IMG/VR virus record: IMGVR_UViG_3300037293_000459
Location: 1 to 35,276 of that record
Source: a virus
Reading direction: 5' to 3' (one strand)
DNA length: 35,276 nt
Shown: piece after piece, positions 8,738 through 30,863 of the stretch
Layout: each line of letters opens with the position of its first letter
Numbering within the stretch: position 1 is the stretch's first letter
The notes under the pieces: model-generated
Told to the model about the DNA's origin: nothing
Databases searched by the model: none
The model's input: only the letters and a program-made list of their open reading frames with translations
Translations under genes and position numbers: made by a program

Positions 8738-9214
8738 ATGAATGAAACATTAACAGCCGATAAAGGCAAAGTATTAGAAGCTTACAACAAAGCTAAATCA
8801 CCACGAAAAGTAATGTTAGAAAATCTTTTCGGAATCAAGACTTTTCATCCCGATGTAAAAGCAAGAATCAAAACTTTTGACGATGTTCTTGCAGAACTAC
8901 AAATTACACCTAGAGATTTTGCACAACAATGCACCGGCTTATCGGCTGATGAAATTGCATACCGAAAGGTAAAATATATTGTACAAGTTTTCAATGAAGG
9001 ATGGACGCCCGATTGGTCAAATTCTAATGAGTATAAATATGTGCCTTATTTTAAAATGGGTTCTCCTCCGGGTGGCGGTTTTTCGTGCGGCGCCTGCGGT
9101 TTTTGGGGCACGGCTTCGAATGTCGGCTCGCGCCTTTGCTTTAAATCTTCTGATTTAGCAAAACATGCAGGAAAATTGTTCGAGACTATTTACAAAGATT
9201 TTTTAACACTTTAA
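8738..9214 (+). CDS. Variable protein 1, DGR-target-like, 158 aa
   Basis: Residues about 1-90 are helical and unlike the neighbour's N-terminus. Residues about 90-107 hold the conserved lead-in (WTPDWSN, YKYVPYF). Residues 108-134 are encoded by the variable repeat: GSPPGGGFS, then a variable tract rich in Cys/Gly, then NVGSRLCF. The Gly-Gly, Trp and final G-x-R pattern recalls the C-type-lectin-fold variable domains of DGR targets. About 24 residues (KSSDLAKHAG...) follow the variable part, unlike classical targets, where it ends the protein. No signal peptide. Role unknown; display of a variable binding surface is inferred. Confidence 0.8.
   Translation: MNETLTADKGKVLEAYNKAKSPRKVMLENLFGIKTFHPDVKARIKTFDDVLAELQITPRDFAQQCTGLSADEIAYRKVKYIVQVFNEGWTPDWSNSNEYKYVPYFKMGSPPGGGFSCGACGFWGTASNVGSRLCFKSSDLAKHAGKLFETIYKDFLTL
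9061..9140 (+). repeat. Variable repeat VR1
   Basis: 80-bp copy inside the first variable gene. Against the non-coding copy at 9636-9715 it differs at 17 of the 20 template adenines but at only 2 of the 60 other positions (offset 8 T to C, offset 76 G to T). Markedly GC-richer than its surroundings. Confidence 0.88.
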
Positions 9215-9225
9215 TTATAAACAAA

Positions 9226-9603
9226 ATGGACTACACAGAAATTAAAACATTTGAAGACGCTTGTACAGCTTTAAAATTAGACGCTACAACCGTAATTCCC
9301 GATTTTTCATTGTTCCCTGAAGCGGACAAATTAGCGATGATTGCACATGCAAAATTAGTATTAATTGCTAAAGCTTTTACAGGCGATTGGGTACCTGATT
9401 GGAGCGACTGGAGCCAATACAAGTATTTTCCTTGGTTCGAAATGGGTTCTCCTTCGGGTGGCGGTTTTTCGTCCGACGGCTGCGATTTTTGGACCTCGTA
9501 TTCGCATGTCGGCTCGCGCCTTTGCTTTCCAACTCGTGAAATGGCAAAATATGCAGGAAAACAATTTGAGGACTTGTACAAAGCCTATTTTGTAAAAGCA
9601 TAA
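9226..9603 (+). CDS. Variable protein 2, DGR-target-like, 125 aa
   Basis: Paralogue of the gene just upstream, 11 nt after its stop. The N-terminal ~55 residues differ from it, but the lead-in (WVPDWSDW, YKYFPWFEMG), the variable domain (residues 74-100, ending HVGSRLCF) and the C-terminal tail (MAKYAGKQFEDLYKAY) are shared. The variable tract differs from that of protein 1 at nearly every position where the template has an adenine. No signal peptide or membrane segment. Two such targets beside one template suggests either separate partners or a heteromer. Its stop is in frame with the template copy 33 nt downstream. Confidence 0.8.
   Translation: MDYTEIKTFEDACTALKLDATTVIPDFSLFPEADKLAMIAHAKLVLIAKAFTGDWVPDWSDWSQYKYFPWFEMGSPSGGGFSSDGCDFWTSYSHVGSRLCFPTREMAKYAGKQFEDLYKAYFVKA
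9447..9526 (+). repeat. Variable repeat VR2
   Basis: 80-bp copy inside the second variable gene. It differs from the template-like copy at 15 of 20 adenines and at only one other position (offset 76 G to T). VR1 and VR2 differ from each other at 11 positions, 10 of which are template adenines. Confidence 0.88.
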
Positions 9604-9635
9604 ATAAATAAGGTTGTGTGGTGCCGTTGCTGTAG

Positions 9636-9715
9636 TTCTCCTTCAGGTGGCAGTTTTTCGTACAACGACTACGATAATTGGAACACGAATTCGAATGTCA
9701 GCTCGCACCTGAGCT
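9636..9715 (+). repeat. Template-like repeat (TR), non-coding
   Basis: 80-bp third copy, 33 nt after the second variable gene. It has no start codon and is preceded by a stop in frame. Translated in the frame of the VRs it would give a tract of Tyr, Asn and Asp (YNDYDNWNTNSN) followed by a stop, the AAY/TAC-rich codon use typical of DGR templates. Adenines mark almost all positions that vary in VR1 and VR2. The 3' end (CTCGCACCTGAGCT) matches the VR ends except at offsets 72, 76 and 77, comparable to the IMH*/IMH difference in known DGRs. Confidence 0.85.
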
Positions 9716-9736
9716 AAAATATTAAAACATTTTTCG

Positions 9737-9763
9737 TTGACATCAAATATTTTTATATATTTG
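9737..9763 (+). promoter_or_regulatory. Bacteroidota promoter for the RNA after the TR
   Basis: Exact TAnnTTTG match, TATATTTG at 9756-9763, with a TTG at 9737-9739 (16-nt spacing, slightly short for the -33 element). The predicted start is about 9767-9768, exactly at the base of the long stem of the structured RNA. Confidence 0.65.
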
Positions 9764-9767
9764 TCAT

Positions 9768-9905
9768 GCAAAACATTACCAAGGAGCAATCCTTAAACCA
9801 TTTTTTTTAACAATAAGCGTTAGCCTCAACACGATGAAGGTGCTAGTGATAGCCCTAACTCATTCCTTGGAATGTTTTGCACATCCGACTTGAGGCTTTC
9901 GTGCG
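9768..9905 (+). ncRNA. Structured non-coding RNA downstream of the TR
   Basis: A long-range stem pairs 9768-9777 (GCAAAACATT) with 9871-9880 (AATGTTTTGC), and, after one bulged base, CCAAGGA (9779-9785) with TCCTTGG (9864-9870). AAGGA-GCAA-TCCTT (9781-9794) can instead form a GNRA-capped hairpin, so two folds compete. Inside are GTTAG/CTAAC (9819-9823, 9855-9859) and the GNRA hairpin GCTA-GTGA-TAGC (9842-9853). GCCTCAA (9823-9829) can pair with TTGAGGC (9890-9896) as a pseudoknot. It has no good reading frame of its own. It may be an independent RNA or the counterpart of the structured spacer 3' of the TR in known DGRs. Confidence 0.6.
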
Positions 9906-9921
9906 TTTAATATTTTCTAGT

Positions 9922-10440
9922 ATGCAAAAAGAAAATCAGAGACCAGTTCAGTCTAAAAATGAGCAAATCATGCATCTGCAAGTAACCGATGGTTTAGCAG
10001 TTGCTGTAATTCAAAATTCAAATTTTGAATTTATAATGCCTACAAAAGATGTGGCATTGGGTTATGGAATTTCTGGTGGAACTATCAGAAAACATCAAGA
10101 GAGATATAGCGATGATTTTGTAGAAGGAAAGCACTATGTAAAGGGTGCGACTATTAGTCACACCCTTTCAAACGTCCAACCACATGCTGTATTTTGGACA
10201 AAAGCAGGAATTATTCGTTTGGGCTTTTTTATCAAAAGTGAAAGAGCCAAACTTTTTAGAGATTGGGCAGAAAGTGTAATTTTAAATTATTCTGCACCAG
10301 CTGTACAACTTCCCGAAATTACTAAACGTAAACACAATCGGTTAACACAGGATAGAATGATAGGCATTTTGGCTGATATTGCAAAAATTGATGACAAAGC
10401 TTTGCGTTTAAGTTTAATCTCTAAATTAGGAATATCATGA
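9922..10440 (+). CDS. Antirepressor-like DNA-binding protein (Bro-N/ORF6N type)
   Basis: I chose ATG 9922 (172 aa); an upstream TTG at 9877 would lie inside the structured RNA. The N-terminal ~110 residues (FIMPTKDVALGYGIS, then HQERYSDDFVEGKHY, VFWTKAGIIRLGFFIKS, KLFRDWAE) have the order of phage antirepressor or Rha/Bro-N-like domains. The C-terminal ~50 residues are helical and basic. Such proteins often control the lytic switch. Its place directly after the TR and structured RNA makes a link to that system possible but unproved. The 3' end overlaps the next gene by 4 nt. Confidence 0.6.
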   Translation: MQKENQRPVQSKNEQIMHLQVTDGLAVAVIQNSNFEFIMPTKDVALGYGISGGTIRKHQERYSDDFVEGKHYVKGATISHTLSNVQPHAVFWTKAGIIRLGFFIKSERAKLFRDWAESVILNYSAPAVQLPEITKRKHNRLTQDRMIGILADIAKIDDKALRLSLISKLGIS

Positions 10441-11563: not shown

Positions 11564-11592
11564 ATAAAACCACTCACTTGAGTGGTTTTTTT
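11564..11592 (+). terminator. Rho-independent terminator
   Basis: AACCACTC (11568-11575) pairs with GAGTGGTT (11580-11587) over a 4-nt loop, followed by a T run to 11592. The stem is perfect. It directly follows the stop of the secreted-protein gene. Confidence 0.85.
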
Positions 11593-11609
11593 ATGCGGTA
11601 AAAATCGAC

Positions 11610-11640
11610 TTGTAAAATTGTTTTTATTGCAATAATTTTG
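11610..11640 (+). promoter_or_regulatory. Promoter for the 77-aa gene
   Basis: TTG (11610-11612), 20-nt spacer, TAATTTTG (11633-11640): a good match to TTG-N-TAnnTTTG. The ATG at 11646 lies only 5 nt beyond, so the mRNA may be leaderless or the true start may lie further in. Confidence 0.6.
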
Positions 11641-11645
11641 GCACT

Positions 11646-11879
11646 ATGGCAAACACTAGAGCTAATGGTGTTCAACGGAATAAGCTTTTACGTTATCAAG
11701 CAGCTGTTGAAACTTATTTATTACATAAAACTGACGACATTCCTTTTGCAGTAGTGTGGCGAAACTATGTATATCCTAAACACTTTATTAGCAAAGGAAC
11801 ACTTTATACAGCCTTGAGTACTCCAATTAAAAAACAACTAAAGGAAATTGATAATCAAATAAAGTTAGATTTTGATTAA
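11646..11879 (+). CDS. Hypothetical protein, 77 aa
   Basis: Basic, helical 77-aa protein; the stretch from about residue 30 to 60 could be a DNA-binding helix pair but no family is clear. It has its own promoter after the terminator, so it is a separate transcription unit. A small late-gene regulator is one possibility given its place before the structural genes (inference). It converges on the leftward head block; the two stop codons share the sequence TTAA. Confidence 0.5.
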   Translation: MANTRANGVQRNKLLRYQAAVETYLLHKTDDIPFAVVWRNYVYPKHFISKGTLYTALSTPIKKQLKEIDNQIKLDFD

Positions 11880-12325
11880 ACGTTAGTTGCTTCAAAATTA
11901 TAAGTTATAAAATATTCTTGAACTCCATCGTCCCGAACGCTTTTTTGCAAATTACTCCGCAACATTTTACTGCAATTTTCTCCAGGACTAAACCCGTGTA
12001 TTTTTTCGTGGAGCTTTTCACTTAAATCCCAAATAAACCATGCCCGGTCTTTTTGTAATTGTGGAGCTTTGCCACTTGTGTGTGTCAGTTTTAAATTTGC
12101 TAAAGTGAATTTAACCGTTATCATTCCATTTTGGCGGTTCTGTGGGTTCTTGGATCTGTCGATACCTAAGTTGGTATAATTTACAGTCGAAATATCAATT
12201 AAACAACATGGCCACTTTACGGGCGGTTGATACATATTTAACTGACCCCAATCTTCATCAACATATTGTAGTTCGGTTATTTCGGCTAAAATTCTATCTT
12301 GAATATTCTGTAAAATGATTTTCAT
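11876..12325 (-). CDS. Neck/tail-terminator-like protein (Mu gpJ/gp37 position)
   Basis: 149 aa, last gene of the leftward head block. Alpha/beta protein with a helical start (ILQNIQDRILAEI), a Trp/Pro segment (QPPVKWPCCLID) and a beta-rich C-terminus, which is the general form of phage tail-terminator or neck proteins. Order after gpG agrees with a gp37-like role. No decisive motif. Overlaps the gpG gene by 4 nt. Confidence 0.55.
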   Translation of the reverse strand: MKIILQNIQDRILAEITELQYVDEDWGQLNMYQPPVKWPCCLIDISTVNYTNLGIDRSKNPQNRQNGMITVKFTLANLKLTHTSGKAPQLQKDRAWFIWDLSEKLHEKIHGFSPGENCSKMLRSNLQKSVRDDGVQEYFITYNFEATNV

Positions 12326-12789
12326 TTTTGTCTATTTTTTATAATTTCATCACTCAATTTTTTTAAGTTTCTATCTACAATTGTTACAATAGCAGCTCTT
12401 AACTGTTTATGGTCTCCAATAAACTGACGTTGTGGAATTGAAATATTTACTTTTCTACTAAATGCCCGGACTTTTTGCACCTTACCTTTAACAGTTCTGT
12501 TGAACGCTCGAACATTTTGAGTAGTTTTTATAGTTCCACCTTCGTTATGAATTTTAGCATAGGGAACGTCAAACTGCCATGTAATGGTATTGTTGCTTCT
12601 TTTTGAAGTATGAATTCCTTTTCTTAACCTTCCAGTTCCCATTAATAAACCTCGACCAGAATCAGCAATTTTTCGCTCTTTCCATTTTGAGCCAAAAAAA
12701 CCACCTTGTTCAAAGTTTCTATCAAATAATTCAGTCGCTTTAACTTCAATGTCTTTTAAAGTTTTATCGGTAAATTGCTGAAAATTCAT
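12322..12789 (-). CDS. Phage virion morphogenesis protein (Mu gpG-like)
   Basis: 155 aa. Segments SGRGLLMGTGRLRKGI, then VPYAKIHNEGG, then SIPQRQFIGDH match the signature of the virion morphogenesis/tail completion family (gpG or gpS), which acts at the head-tail junction. Length is normal. It sits between the gpF-like gene and the neck gene with 4-nt overlaps on both sides. Confidence 0.82.
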   Translation of the reverse strand: MNFQQFTDKTLKDIEVKATELFDRNFEQGGFFGSKWKERKIADSGRGLLMGTGRLRKGIHTSKRSNNTITWQFDVPYAKIHNEGGTIKTTQNVRAFNRTVKGKVQKVRAFSRKVNISIPQRQFIGDHKQLRAAIVTIVDRNLKKLSDEIIKNRQK

Positions 12790-13628
12790 AATTTCTTTTT
12801 AAATTCTTTTATAACTATTTTCGCTCCAGCAACTTTAGTATAAGGATGTGATGGAGGGAATACCACTTTTTGTTTACCCGGATTGAACCTAAATATTTCG
12901 AGTTTGTTTTTACCGTCCTTTCCTATTTGGCTTGTAGCCAACTCACCTTGTGCAATTGCCTTTTCACTATCACTAGCCTTATAATCTTCTGGCAAAACTT
13001 CTACAACTGTACAACGACATCTCCAACCATTAGGAGGCATGAAGCTGTCCCAAAACGTATCGCTTTTGGGTAATGTAGTATCTCGTAATTTATCGTGGCT
13101 GTCTCGAACTCTTTTATCTCCTGCAGTACGGTATTGCAAATTATAATCGTTATCAAAATTTGACCATTTATTAGCCATTTGAGACGAAGCAATTGCAAAC
13201 TGATATTCTGATTCTAAATATTGTCTATTGTACGTTTCATTGATACTTTGAACTTCTTTAAAAAATTGTGGAAATATTTTTATTTTTCCATCACTATTTA
13301 ATAATAGTTGTGAAGCTTCAAAAAGTTGAGCATGGGTTTTTAGTGCCGAAAAGTAAAAAGTATCATTCTGTAAATTTTCTAAAAGTGTTCCATCAACAAC
13401 ATTATCAATAATTGTTTTATCAAAAATGGCATTGGTATCGTTTATTAAATTTTGAAACTCTTTTGTATTTAGTAAGTCGCTAGTTTTATAAACTTGGTTG
13501 GAATGTAACTTTTTAAACGCCTTTTCAGCGGTTTTTAAAAGCTTTTTAAATTTACTTCCAATAGATAAGGAAAGTGCCTCTTTCTCGCTTTTACAAGTCG
13601 AACAATTGCAGTCATAAATAAAATGCAA
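12786..13628 (-). CDS. Head morphogenesis protein (Mu gpF-like)
   Basis: 280 aa from the TTG at 13628. The C-terminal half carries the typical Mu F/SPP1 gp7 signature: RTAGDKRVRDSHDKLRD and PPNGWRCRCTV, the latter a Cys pair at the end of the domain. N-terminal Cys pair CNCSTC. The start is problematic: no ATG lies in frame, and the frame stays open upstream with protein-like text (KYFGALHERL) back into the portal gene. Either TTG is used or the product is made by frameshift from the portal gene (see the slippery site). Confidence 0.82.
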   Translation of the reverse strand: MHFIYDCNCSTCKSEKEALSLSIGSKFKKLLKTAEKAFKKLHSNQVYKTSDLLNTKEFQNLINDTNAIFDKTIIDNVVDGTLLENLQNDTFYFSALKTHAQLFEASQLLLNSDGKIKIFPQFFKEVQSINETYNRQYLESEYQFAIASSQMANKWSNFDNDYNLQYRTAGDKRVRDSHDKLRDTTLPKSDTFWDSFMPPNGWRCRCTVVEVLPEDYKASDSEKAIAQGELATSQIGKDGKNKLEIFRFNPGKQKVVFPPSHPYTKVAGAKIVIKEFKKKL

Positions 13629-13660
13629 TCGCTCATGTAATGCCCCAAAATATTTAGGGC

Positions 13661-14932
13661 TTAGACGAAAAAATCCGAGTCGAAGTTTAAATTTTGATTG
13701 TCTTTTTTAGTAGTATCTTTTGGTGGAGTTGGAGTTGTTCTTATTCCCGTAAGTTTGAAACCAAATGTTTTATTAGCCCATTCTAAATCCATATCATAAC
13801 CATTTCCTAAAGCTTCATGTGTCATTTTCCAAAGTTGGTCTATGTCTTCACTTTCTGGATAAGAAAAAACCAAGTCGCTTGGTATGATTCCAATATTTGC
13901 CAATGCCGGTAAAACTACACTATTCCAATATTGTTCAATCAATGACAAATCACTATCTACAAGGGTTTGTAGCGTTTCTTGCATAGCCGATTCTTTGGAA
14001 CGTGAACCGTTTTTAGTATCTTGACCCATTACAGCTCCAGAGATTAACATTGAAATTTCATTGTTACAAAAAGTCATCAATTTCTCGTAAACATCTCCAG
14101 TTGCTTTAGACGATTCAGCCCATTCAAATTTCTCGTTTTCATCAATGATAAACCAAGCGGCGGCACCCATATCTTTCATCATTCGTTCGGCACGTCTCAA
14201 CATTGCGATATTTTGCGTGTCCGTTTTCATTACTCTTGGTGGTATTCCTGCTATTTCGCACAATTCCGACCAACAACTTTGAGCAAATCGTTTGAATAAA
14301 ACGTGAGGCACGGCATTGTTTAAAAGGCCTAATCCTTCGGTATTTCCAAACTCTAAAATGTAAGTACCGTACTCTTTCATTTCACGGTATTTTATAAATT
14401 TATCGTCTGAATAGTCCGGATAAAATAAACCTTCCCTTGGTTCAATATTTTGACGTTTAATAATGGTACATCTTAAATCATTATTTGCAGGGTCGCCAAT
14501 TCGTTCAAGTTCTACAACCGTATGCTCTTTTGTTCTTGTTTCTAAAATACCTTTATTGATTTCATTTACAAAAATTTTGTCTTGTAGAAAAGCCGTTACT
14601 TCATCATTCACTTTTCCATTTTTATCTGAAATAATAAATGTAGCACCTAATGATTTTAAAAATCGGTTGTTAATTTGAGAACTCAAAAGTCCATCGATAG
14701 TGATTTCATCATATAAATTGTGCAATAAAAACCGTTTTGGTTTTTCTGCTTTTCGTGCCATTGTCAAAGCCGTGTTCCACGAAGCAACATCTTGACGAAC
14801 TCTCGAAAGGGATTTTTGAGCAATTTGATTAACCAGAAGATTATTAAATTTTGCCGTATTTGGATTTGCCGCTAAAGTGGCTGTTTCTGATTTTTTATTT
14901 AAAAACCCGAAAAAGTTATTTTTGTATTTCAT
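13661..14932 (-). CDS. Portal protein (Mu gp29/DUF935-like)
   Basis: 423 aa. Portals form the dodecameric ring at the head vertex for DNA entry and exit. Features seen: TIDGLLSSQINNRFLKSLG, a region FKRFAQSCWSELCEIAGIPP, the segment FCNNEISMLISGAVMGQDT and GSRSKESAMQETL, all in DUF935 order. Normal length for compact versions. Starts 1 nt from the DUF1320 gene stop; ends at 13661 with a run of Phe codons that is a candidate frameshift site into the gpF frame. Confidence 0.85.
   Translation of the reverse strand: MKYKNNFFGFLNKKSETATLAANPNTAKFNNLLVNQIAQKSLSRVRQDVASWNTALTMARKAEKPKRFLLHNLYDEITIDGLLSSQINNRFLKSLGATFIISDKNGKVNDEVTAFLQDKIFVNEINKGILETRTKEHTVVELERIGDPANNDLRCTIIKRQNIEPREGLFYPDYSDDKFIKYREMKEYGTYILEFGNTEGLGLLNNAVPHVLFKRFAQSCWSELCEIAGIPPRVMKTDTQNIAMLRRAERMMKDMGAAAWFIIDENEKFEWAESSKATGDVYEKLMTFCNNEISMLISGAVMGQDTKNGSRSKESAMQETLQTLVDSDLSLIEQYWNSVVLPALANIGIIPSDLVFSYPESEDIDQLWKMTHEALGNGYDMDLEWANKTFGFKLTGIRTTPTPPKDTTKKDNQNLNFDSDFFV
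13667..13673 (-). other. Candidate -1 frameshift site at the portal 3' end
   Basis: On the minus strand the last portal codons read GAT TTT TTC GTC TAA, giving the heptamer T TTT TTC in the X XXY YYZ register. A -1 slip avoids the stop and enters the open gpF frame, reading through RLSPKYFGALHERL into the annotated gpF protein. Confidence 0.4.
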
Positions 14933-29549: not shown

Positions 29550-30003
29550 AGTAGATTGGGACAGACTTGTTTTATTGTTGCTGCCGACTTTTTTGCGAAA
29601 GCCTAATTTGTTTGGGTATATAAAAGCCCTGTTGTCTCCAGTTGATAGTTTGCACTACAATTGGAAATTAATGCGAGAGGCTAATTTGAATAAATTGAGT
29701 TACAACGGTCAAAAATGCTATTTACGAAAAGCATTAAATGACATTGCCGATTTTGAACTTAGACGAATTTACATAAATGAAGTACCCGTATTAGACCCAA
29801 ATTATTTATATCAACCTGAAGAAAATTTAGACTTCTATCTTGACACGATGTTTTTGGACTTGGACTATTCCGAACAAGGAGAAACGGTAGATTTTGTTGT
29901 TTATGTTCCAACCGATGTATTAGAATTAAAAGAAAATGAAATTATTGCTACGCTTGAGTTTTACACCTTAGCAGGCAAAACCTATAAAATTTTGACAATA
30001 TGA
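29539..30003 (+). CDS. Baseplate wedge/tail protein I-like (Mu gp48)
   Basis: 154 aa. Starts WYKVDWDRLVLLLLPTFLRKP, typical of gp48/gpI-type connectors, then an Asp-rich middle. It would attach fibres to the wedge. Position between J and the collar-domain fibre supports it. Confidence 0.68.
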   Translation: MWYKVDWDRLVLLLLPTFLRKPNLFGYIKALLSPVDSLHYNWKLMREANLNKLSYNGQKCYLRKALNDIADFELRRIYINEVPVLDPNYLYQPEENLDFYLDTMFLDLDYSEQGETVDFVVYVPTDVLELKENEIIATLEFYTLAGKTYKILTI

Positions 30004-30863
30004 ATATCATTAATTTTACGCTGTTAAATGGACTTCCTATGAACCAAATGGTTCTCGGACGTTTGCAAACTGCCTTTAGCTTATTCAACGCCCTTGGTGC
30101 AATTGCTGGAGATAAAACAATTATATCGGGTTGTGTGGTTACAGGTTCTAACGTTAGTGATGGAGTTGTCTTTGTCAATGGCGAAGTATTTGAATTTAAA
30201 GGCGGGGTTATCCAACCGAAAGTAATTGTCCTTGAAACTGTGACTAACTTGACTTTTAAAAATGACAATTCCTATCCAGTTGTTAAAACCCGACAAATTG
30301 CGTTCGGTAGTGGTGTTGGTCAAATGGATTGGGTGGATTTTCAAAGACCAATCGAAACCAAATCAATACCAACCGACCTTGTAACTCGATTGGAAAATTT
30401 AGAAAAGAAATCAGCAGTATTTCAAGCAGGAGGCGGCATGGTTCTTTGGAACAAACCCGCTATTAATATTCCTGCAGGTTGGGCGGAAGTTGTCAATTGG
30501 CGTGGTAGAATTCCTGTTGGAATGGATGTGACACAAACCGAATTTAACACACTCGGTAAGCAAGGCGGTGCTAAATCTAAAATACTTTCTGAAGCTGAAA
30601 TGCCAGAACATGGACATAAAATGTTTACAAACGAGGACAGACCCGGAAGCCCGTCAAGTTCAGCAAACCGATTAGCAACTGAGAACCCGGATAATTATGT
30701 AGCCGCTCGATGTTCAGATGGAGGCGATAATGATTATTCGCTTACAAAAGCTAGTACAGGCTTAACGCCATCTGCCGGTAATTCTGGTACAAGTGGTTCT
30801 GGTCAATCTTTTTCTATTTTAAACCCGTATCGAACTGTTTTATTTATTGAATATATACTATAA
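30000..30863 (+). CDS. Tail fibre with phage tail-collar domain
   Basis: 287 aa. First ~140 residues are a beta-rich anchor. Residues about 145-285 are a tail-collar (MdpB-like) domain: PAGWAEVVNWRGRIPVG, the segment EMPEHGHKM with the typical His, a Gly/Ser-rich section, and LNPYRTVLFIEYIL at the end. Collar-domain proteins sit at the fibre base. Overlaps previous stop by 4 nt. Confidence 0.8.
   Translation: MNIINFTLLNGLPMNQMVLGRLQTAFSLFNALGAIAGDKTIISGCVVTGSNVSDGVVFVNGEVFEFKGGVIQPKVIVLETVTNLTFKNDNSYPVVKTRQIAFGSGVGQMDWVDFQRPIETKSIPTDLVTRLENLEKKSAVFQAGGGMVLWNKPAINIPAGWAEVVNWRGRIPVGMDVTQTEFNTLGKQGGAKSKILSEAEMPEHGHKMFTNEDRPGSPSSSANRLATENPDNYVAARCSDGGDNDYSLTKASTGLTPSAGNSGTSGSGQSFSILNPYRTVLFIEYIL

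Follow-up and report, generated by a model that had tools for sequence, protein, structure and literature searches.

A probable remnant of a diversity-generating retroelement, truncated by recent module exchange, in a Mu-like phage of Bacteroidota

The window (the whole 35,276-bp viral record analyzed here) belongs to a Mu-like phage of Bacteroidota, and its nearest relatives point to Flavobacterium as the probable host. Two small genes in tandem each contain a variable repeat (VR), and they are followed by a non-coding template repeat (TR), a homology breakpoint, and an antirepressor gene with its leader RNA. The features are as follows:

8738-9214, plus strand: target gene 1 (158 aa, phrog_11581), an intact ORF that contains VR1
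9061-9140, plus strand: VR1, variable repeat within target gene 1, aligned to TR over 80 nt without gaps
9226-9603, plus strand: target gene 2 (125 aa, phrog_11581), an intact ORF that contains VR2
9447-9526, plus strand: VR2, variable repeat within target gene 2, aligned to TR over 80 nt without gaps
9636-9715, plus strand: TR, non-coding template repeat, identical at 80/80 positions to the TRs of related loci L004, L024, L103, and L156
9716-9743, no strand: mosaic junction marked by nucleotide homology breakpoints; the spacer RNA, reverse transcriptase (RT), and ~98-aa ORF of the relatives are missing here
9755-9921, plus strand: structured leader RNA of the antirepressor module (P1 arms 9767-9786/9863-9881; pseudoknot 9821-9829/9890-9898)
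9922-10440, plus strand: Bro-N-type antirepressor (172 aa), which occupies the place of the relatives' RT

Both VRs are in frame in the 3' part of their ORFs, with about 24 codons beyond the VR, as in the relatives. VR1 was changed at 17 of the 20 template adenines (12 A>G, 3 A>T, and 2 A>C) and at 2 of the 60 other positions (T>C at 9068 and G>T at 9136). VR2 was changed at 15 of the 20 adenines and at 1 of the 60 others (G>T at 9522), and the two VRs differed from each other at 11 positions. On recount, these positions and numbers agreed exactly with those given in the preliminary description. Pooled over the two VRs, 32/40 adenines but only 3/120 other positions were changed (Fisher's exact test, p = 9e-23). 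No further copy of the repeat was found on either strand of the window. The G>T changes at 9522 and 9136 occupy the same alignment position. This position belongs to the 3' boundary, at which family TRs have ends such as CACCTGAGCT or CACCTATGCT and the VRs end in CGCCTTTGCT, so the shared G>T is apparently a fixed difference between VR and TR at the boundary rather than noise. Thus, the T>C at 9068, which lies on the 5' edge of VR1, is the sole non-adenine change without an explanation.

A search with target 1 recovered 40 viral and 17 genomic loci, and a search with the TR pattern recovered 66 viral contigs. In most loci of the target 1 search, VR1, VR2, and TR were arranged in this order on one strand with almost no non-adenine change, and the VR1-VR2-TR layout was found in about 60 loci. 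When 58 loci were pooled (118 distinct VR-TR pairs), 1337/1940 adenines (69%) and 12/3960 other positions (0.3%) were changed, and 106 of the 118 pairs carried no non-adenine change at all. Alignment with related phages, which the preliminary description had proposed as a check, thus found the changes confined to template adenines, and its reading of the repeats as the signature of a diversity-generating retroelement (DGR) is supported both in the window and across the family. Judged by this substitution pattern, VR1, VR2, and TR are a genuine DGR footprint.

The order of elements in the family is target 1 (~155 aa), target 2 (~125 aa), TR, a spacer (~100-150 nt), RT, and an ORF of ~98 aa. The RT of the relatives is mostly 316-350 aa long (~320 aa), matches RVT_1 and phrog_1423, and carries IGNYLSQ, which fits the DGR-RT motif (I/V/L)GxxxSQ. 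The ~98-aa ORF overlaps or abuts the RT end, is present in nearly all relatives, and was not Avd-like in a family search. In L004 (9908-10204), the AlphaFold2 model of its product was beta-rich with a pLDDT of 92, and the best PDB matches were weak and included OB folds. The spacer RNA of the relatives is about 110 nt long, conserved, and covarying, and 10 of its 13 predicted pairs show two-sided compensated changes. The product of the ~98-aa ORF is perhaps a nucleic-acid-binding accessory protein in place of Avd. Small tandem targets with a tail of about 24 residues had been described as not the classical layout. Since the VR1-VR2-TR arrangement recurs throughout these loci, this is, by comparison, the normal layout of the family, and DGRs with two to four VRs or with two or more targets have been reported earlier (PMC3521204).

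The annotated function of phrog_11581, to which both target proteins belong, is unknown. The target proteins had no Pfam or NCBIfam match, and neither their sequence nor their structure matched any PDB entry. The AlphaFold2 model of the target was mostly helical, with confident helices surrounding a low-confidence VR loop (pLDDT 84 overall, 41-67 across most of the VR), and Foldseek searches with this model gave good scores only to uncharacterised viral proteins and no lectin. The lectin-like character previously ascribed to the VR domains was thus not confirmed. The target genes have the transposition genes on one side and the antirepressor on the other, and lie about 20 kb from a tail-protein match at 30000-30863. 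Such a position, early or accessory and remote from the tail genes, speaks against a tail fibre as the obvious role of the target proteins. A single distant relative turned up among deposited phages.

No RT was found anywhere in the 35,276-bp record, and tblastn with 43 RTs of relatives detected no RT remnants in the window. Similarly, tblastn with 36 ORFs of relatives gave no trace in the window of the ORF that follows RT. The best hit of the spacer RNA model (R1) in the window had E = 5, which is no match, and the same model matched over its full length in each of the TR-bearing relatives searched (E 9e-17 to 4e-4). Of the 47 related records and genomes, 44 carried RT, and 33 of the 34 viral records in this set each gave exactly one RT match. 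Among the 66 TR-bearing contigs, 60 carried a full-length or contig-cut RT beside TR, and two more carried it just outside the fetched stretch. In L109, RT was reduced to a 48-aa stump. It was absent from the fetched TR-bearing contigs of L140, L143, and L145, of which L140 and L143 are short contigs whose RT may lie elsewhere in the phage. L048, in a Chitinophagaceae MAG without an RT match, is another RT-less case. These five relatives without an intact RT keep the spacer RNA (E 4e-9 to 9e-17). The cassette of the window had been taken as a working DGR, but the RT, the template-RNA spacer, and the accessory ORF that are present in nearly all relatives are absent here.

Nucleotide homology to the DGR cassette of the relatives stops at 9723-9731, and homology to phages without a DGR starts at 9743 (L155) or at 9716 (L159, which has the same module). 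At this breakpoint, the spacer, RT, and downstream ORF were thus replaced by the antirepressor module. The flanks of TR are only 72-87% identical to those of L004, L024, L103, and L156, which all bear RT, while TR itself is identical, and on this comparison the loss of RT is judged to be recent.

The junction is known from one record only. No second record with the same junction was found; the three hits to the pattern came from the spacers of RT-bearing phages. An assembly or binning artefact would mean that RT is really present and that the TR end was joined to the antirepressor module of a second prophage. Two prophages with common DGR sequence can confuse assembly, as seen in the scaffold Ns of L145. 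However, there is no N at the junction, the sequence on both sides matches the same relatives or the same kind of phage (downstream of the module, L003 at 11582-13697, 72%), and the swap falls exactly at the module boundary, as in L155 and L159. We therefore regard an artefact as quite improbable.

The leader RNA of the incoming module, compared across the window, L154, L155, L159, and L165-L175, forms a long stem, a hairpin, and a pseudoknot. Two-sided changes occurred in 19 of 32 pairs, 90% of cells were paired, and covariation was 0.383 versus 0.151 when shuffled. Two mutually exclusive pairings covary, a local one (AAGGA-GNRA-TCCTT) and a distal one between TTTTGCA and the start codon (TGCAAAA), suggesting that the leader may be a translation switch. 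It had no Rfam match even at E <= 10. The leader RNA was found in about 60 of 399 Flavobacterium-group genomes, and in the ten loci read it precedes a ~90-aa ORF of unknown function. The hairpin at 9767-9881 was also considered as a substitute DGR spacer or a retron. This was rejected, since it is part of the antirepressor module, is present in the DGR-less L154, L155, and L159, and also precedes the ~90-aa ORF in Flavobacterium-group genomes.

We consider that the locus is a DGR remnant that was recently stripped by module exchange and is now static, with a probability of about 0.83 for the whole account. In the ancestor, following the known DGR pathway, the RT would have made cDNA from the TR transcript, inserting random bases wherever the template has adenine, and this cDNA would have replaced VR1 and VR2, leaving the footprint observed. 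A recent module exchange with a related phage then replaced everything 3' of TR by the antirepressor module and its own leader RNA, as the comparison at the junction shows. Two intact, static variant target proteins and an idle template would be left over, with no reverse transcription in cis. In BPP-1, the folded spacer recruits bRT-Avd, and an adenine within the spacer primes cDNA synthesis (PMC12875486). Judged by BPP-1, the TR of the window would not be copied in cis, nor easily in trans, and since the spacer was lost together with RT, an RT encoded elsewhere in the cell would hardly rescue the cassette. The cassette is thus probably dead in cis and the system frozen, its present silence being read from these absences. 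VR and TR have no visible decay outside the adenines, which counts against the frozen state, as the same would be expected if homing continued. In favour of that state, a 2012 survey described DGRs whose RT is inactivated but whose VR/TR pairs are clean, and read them as very recent inactivation (PMC3521204).

Another explanation is that the cassette is a "satellite" DGR, still diversified by a DGR RT encoded elsewhere in the host, such as in another prophage. The clean VR/TR pairs are consistent with this, as are the several relatives in which VR, TR, and spacer RNA persist although RT is not intact. A decayed RT beside a distal target has precedent, and this arrangement has been taken as a sign of one RT serving several sites (PMC3521204). 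One Flavobacterium-group genome (G323) contains three RT copies. IMG genome 2897748404 carries both an RT-bearing prophage (L092) and the RT-less L145, which have 200 nt of TR and spacer in common at 99.5% identity. This genome shows two VR haplotypes per target, which differ only inside the VR and, except for one base, at template adenines. L145 (11837-13280) is a scaffold with single Ns, and the flanks of its two haplotypes are otherwise identical. As a proof of trans use, the pair is not decisive, because the haplotypes may belong one to each prophage, and the same picture is equally expected if only the RT-bearing copy diversified. It is compatible with service in trans. However, the window also lacks the spacer RNA that other RT-less relatives keep and that BPP-1 needs for RT recruitment and priming, and continued diversification of the window's cassette is very unlikely. 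In a wider and rather doubtful reading, RT-less DGRs might form a recurrent satellite class that keeps targets, template, and mostly the spacer and depends for diversification on the RT of another prophage in the same cell, acting in trans; the window would then be an extreme case, having lost the spacer as well. Two paralogous genes might have a repeat in common, but ordinary paralogous repeats that diverged under selection without a DGR are refuted by the family comparison, since changes are confined to the adenines of a non-coding template in the window and in the 118 VR-TR pairs, with RT beside nearly all of them, and this explanation is scarcely credible.

The DGR remnant proposed here resembles several known systems. 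Hankyphage is also a transposable Bacteroidota phage (Mu-like, in Bacteroides) with adenine-specific VR/TR differences, and its small ORF near RT is a further likeness. However, it has one VR, at residues 2188-2225 of a single large ORF that encodes a C-type lectin domain, and its RT is present (PMC6199706), whereas the window has two small tandem targets, no detected lectin fold, and no RT. In BPP-1, a Bordetella phage, the VR likewise precedes TR, with A-to-N changes and a conserved 3' VR/TR boundary. BPP-1 has avd, TR, a structured spacer, and bRT (PMC12875486), whereas the window is without spacer, RT, and accessory gene, and its relatives differ from BPP-1 in their non-Avd-like ORF after RT. 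The inactivated DGRs of the DiGReF survey, with truncated, frameshifted, or IS-broken RTs, are similar in keeping intact VR/TR without a working RT (PMC3521204). In contrast to these, the RT, spacer RNA, and accessory ORF of the window were wholly replaced by a foreign module.

A large DGR survey sought RT first and then repeats around it (PMC8144416). Because large surveys begin from RT, RT-less cassettes are invisible to them. About six loci of the present family have lost or truncated RT, with targets and template clean, and such loci offer a way to test whether cassettes can be served by an RT in trans and to time the decay of a DGR that has lost its enzyme. From this family, a template-RNA spacer with covariation can also be defined, together with a small target protein that has no recognised lectin fold and whose gene lies at a distance from the tail genes.

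Two minor observations were made. In genome G286, L162 is a solitary target gene of the VR type; the fetched stretch contained no TR, the genome gave no match to the family RT, and the gene may represent either a later stage of decay or a captured target. In the window, a lone tRNA-Lys(TTT) gene is located inside the phage at 6760-6830.
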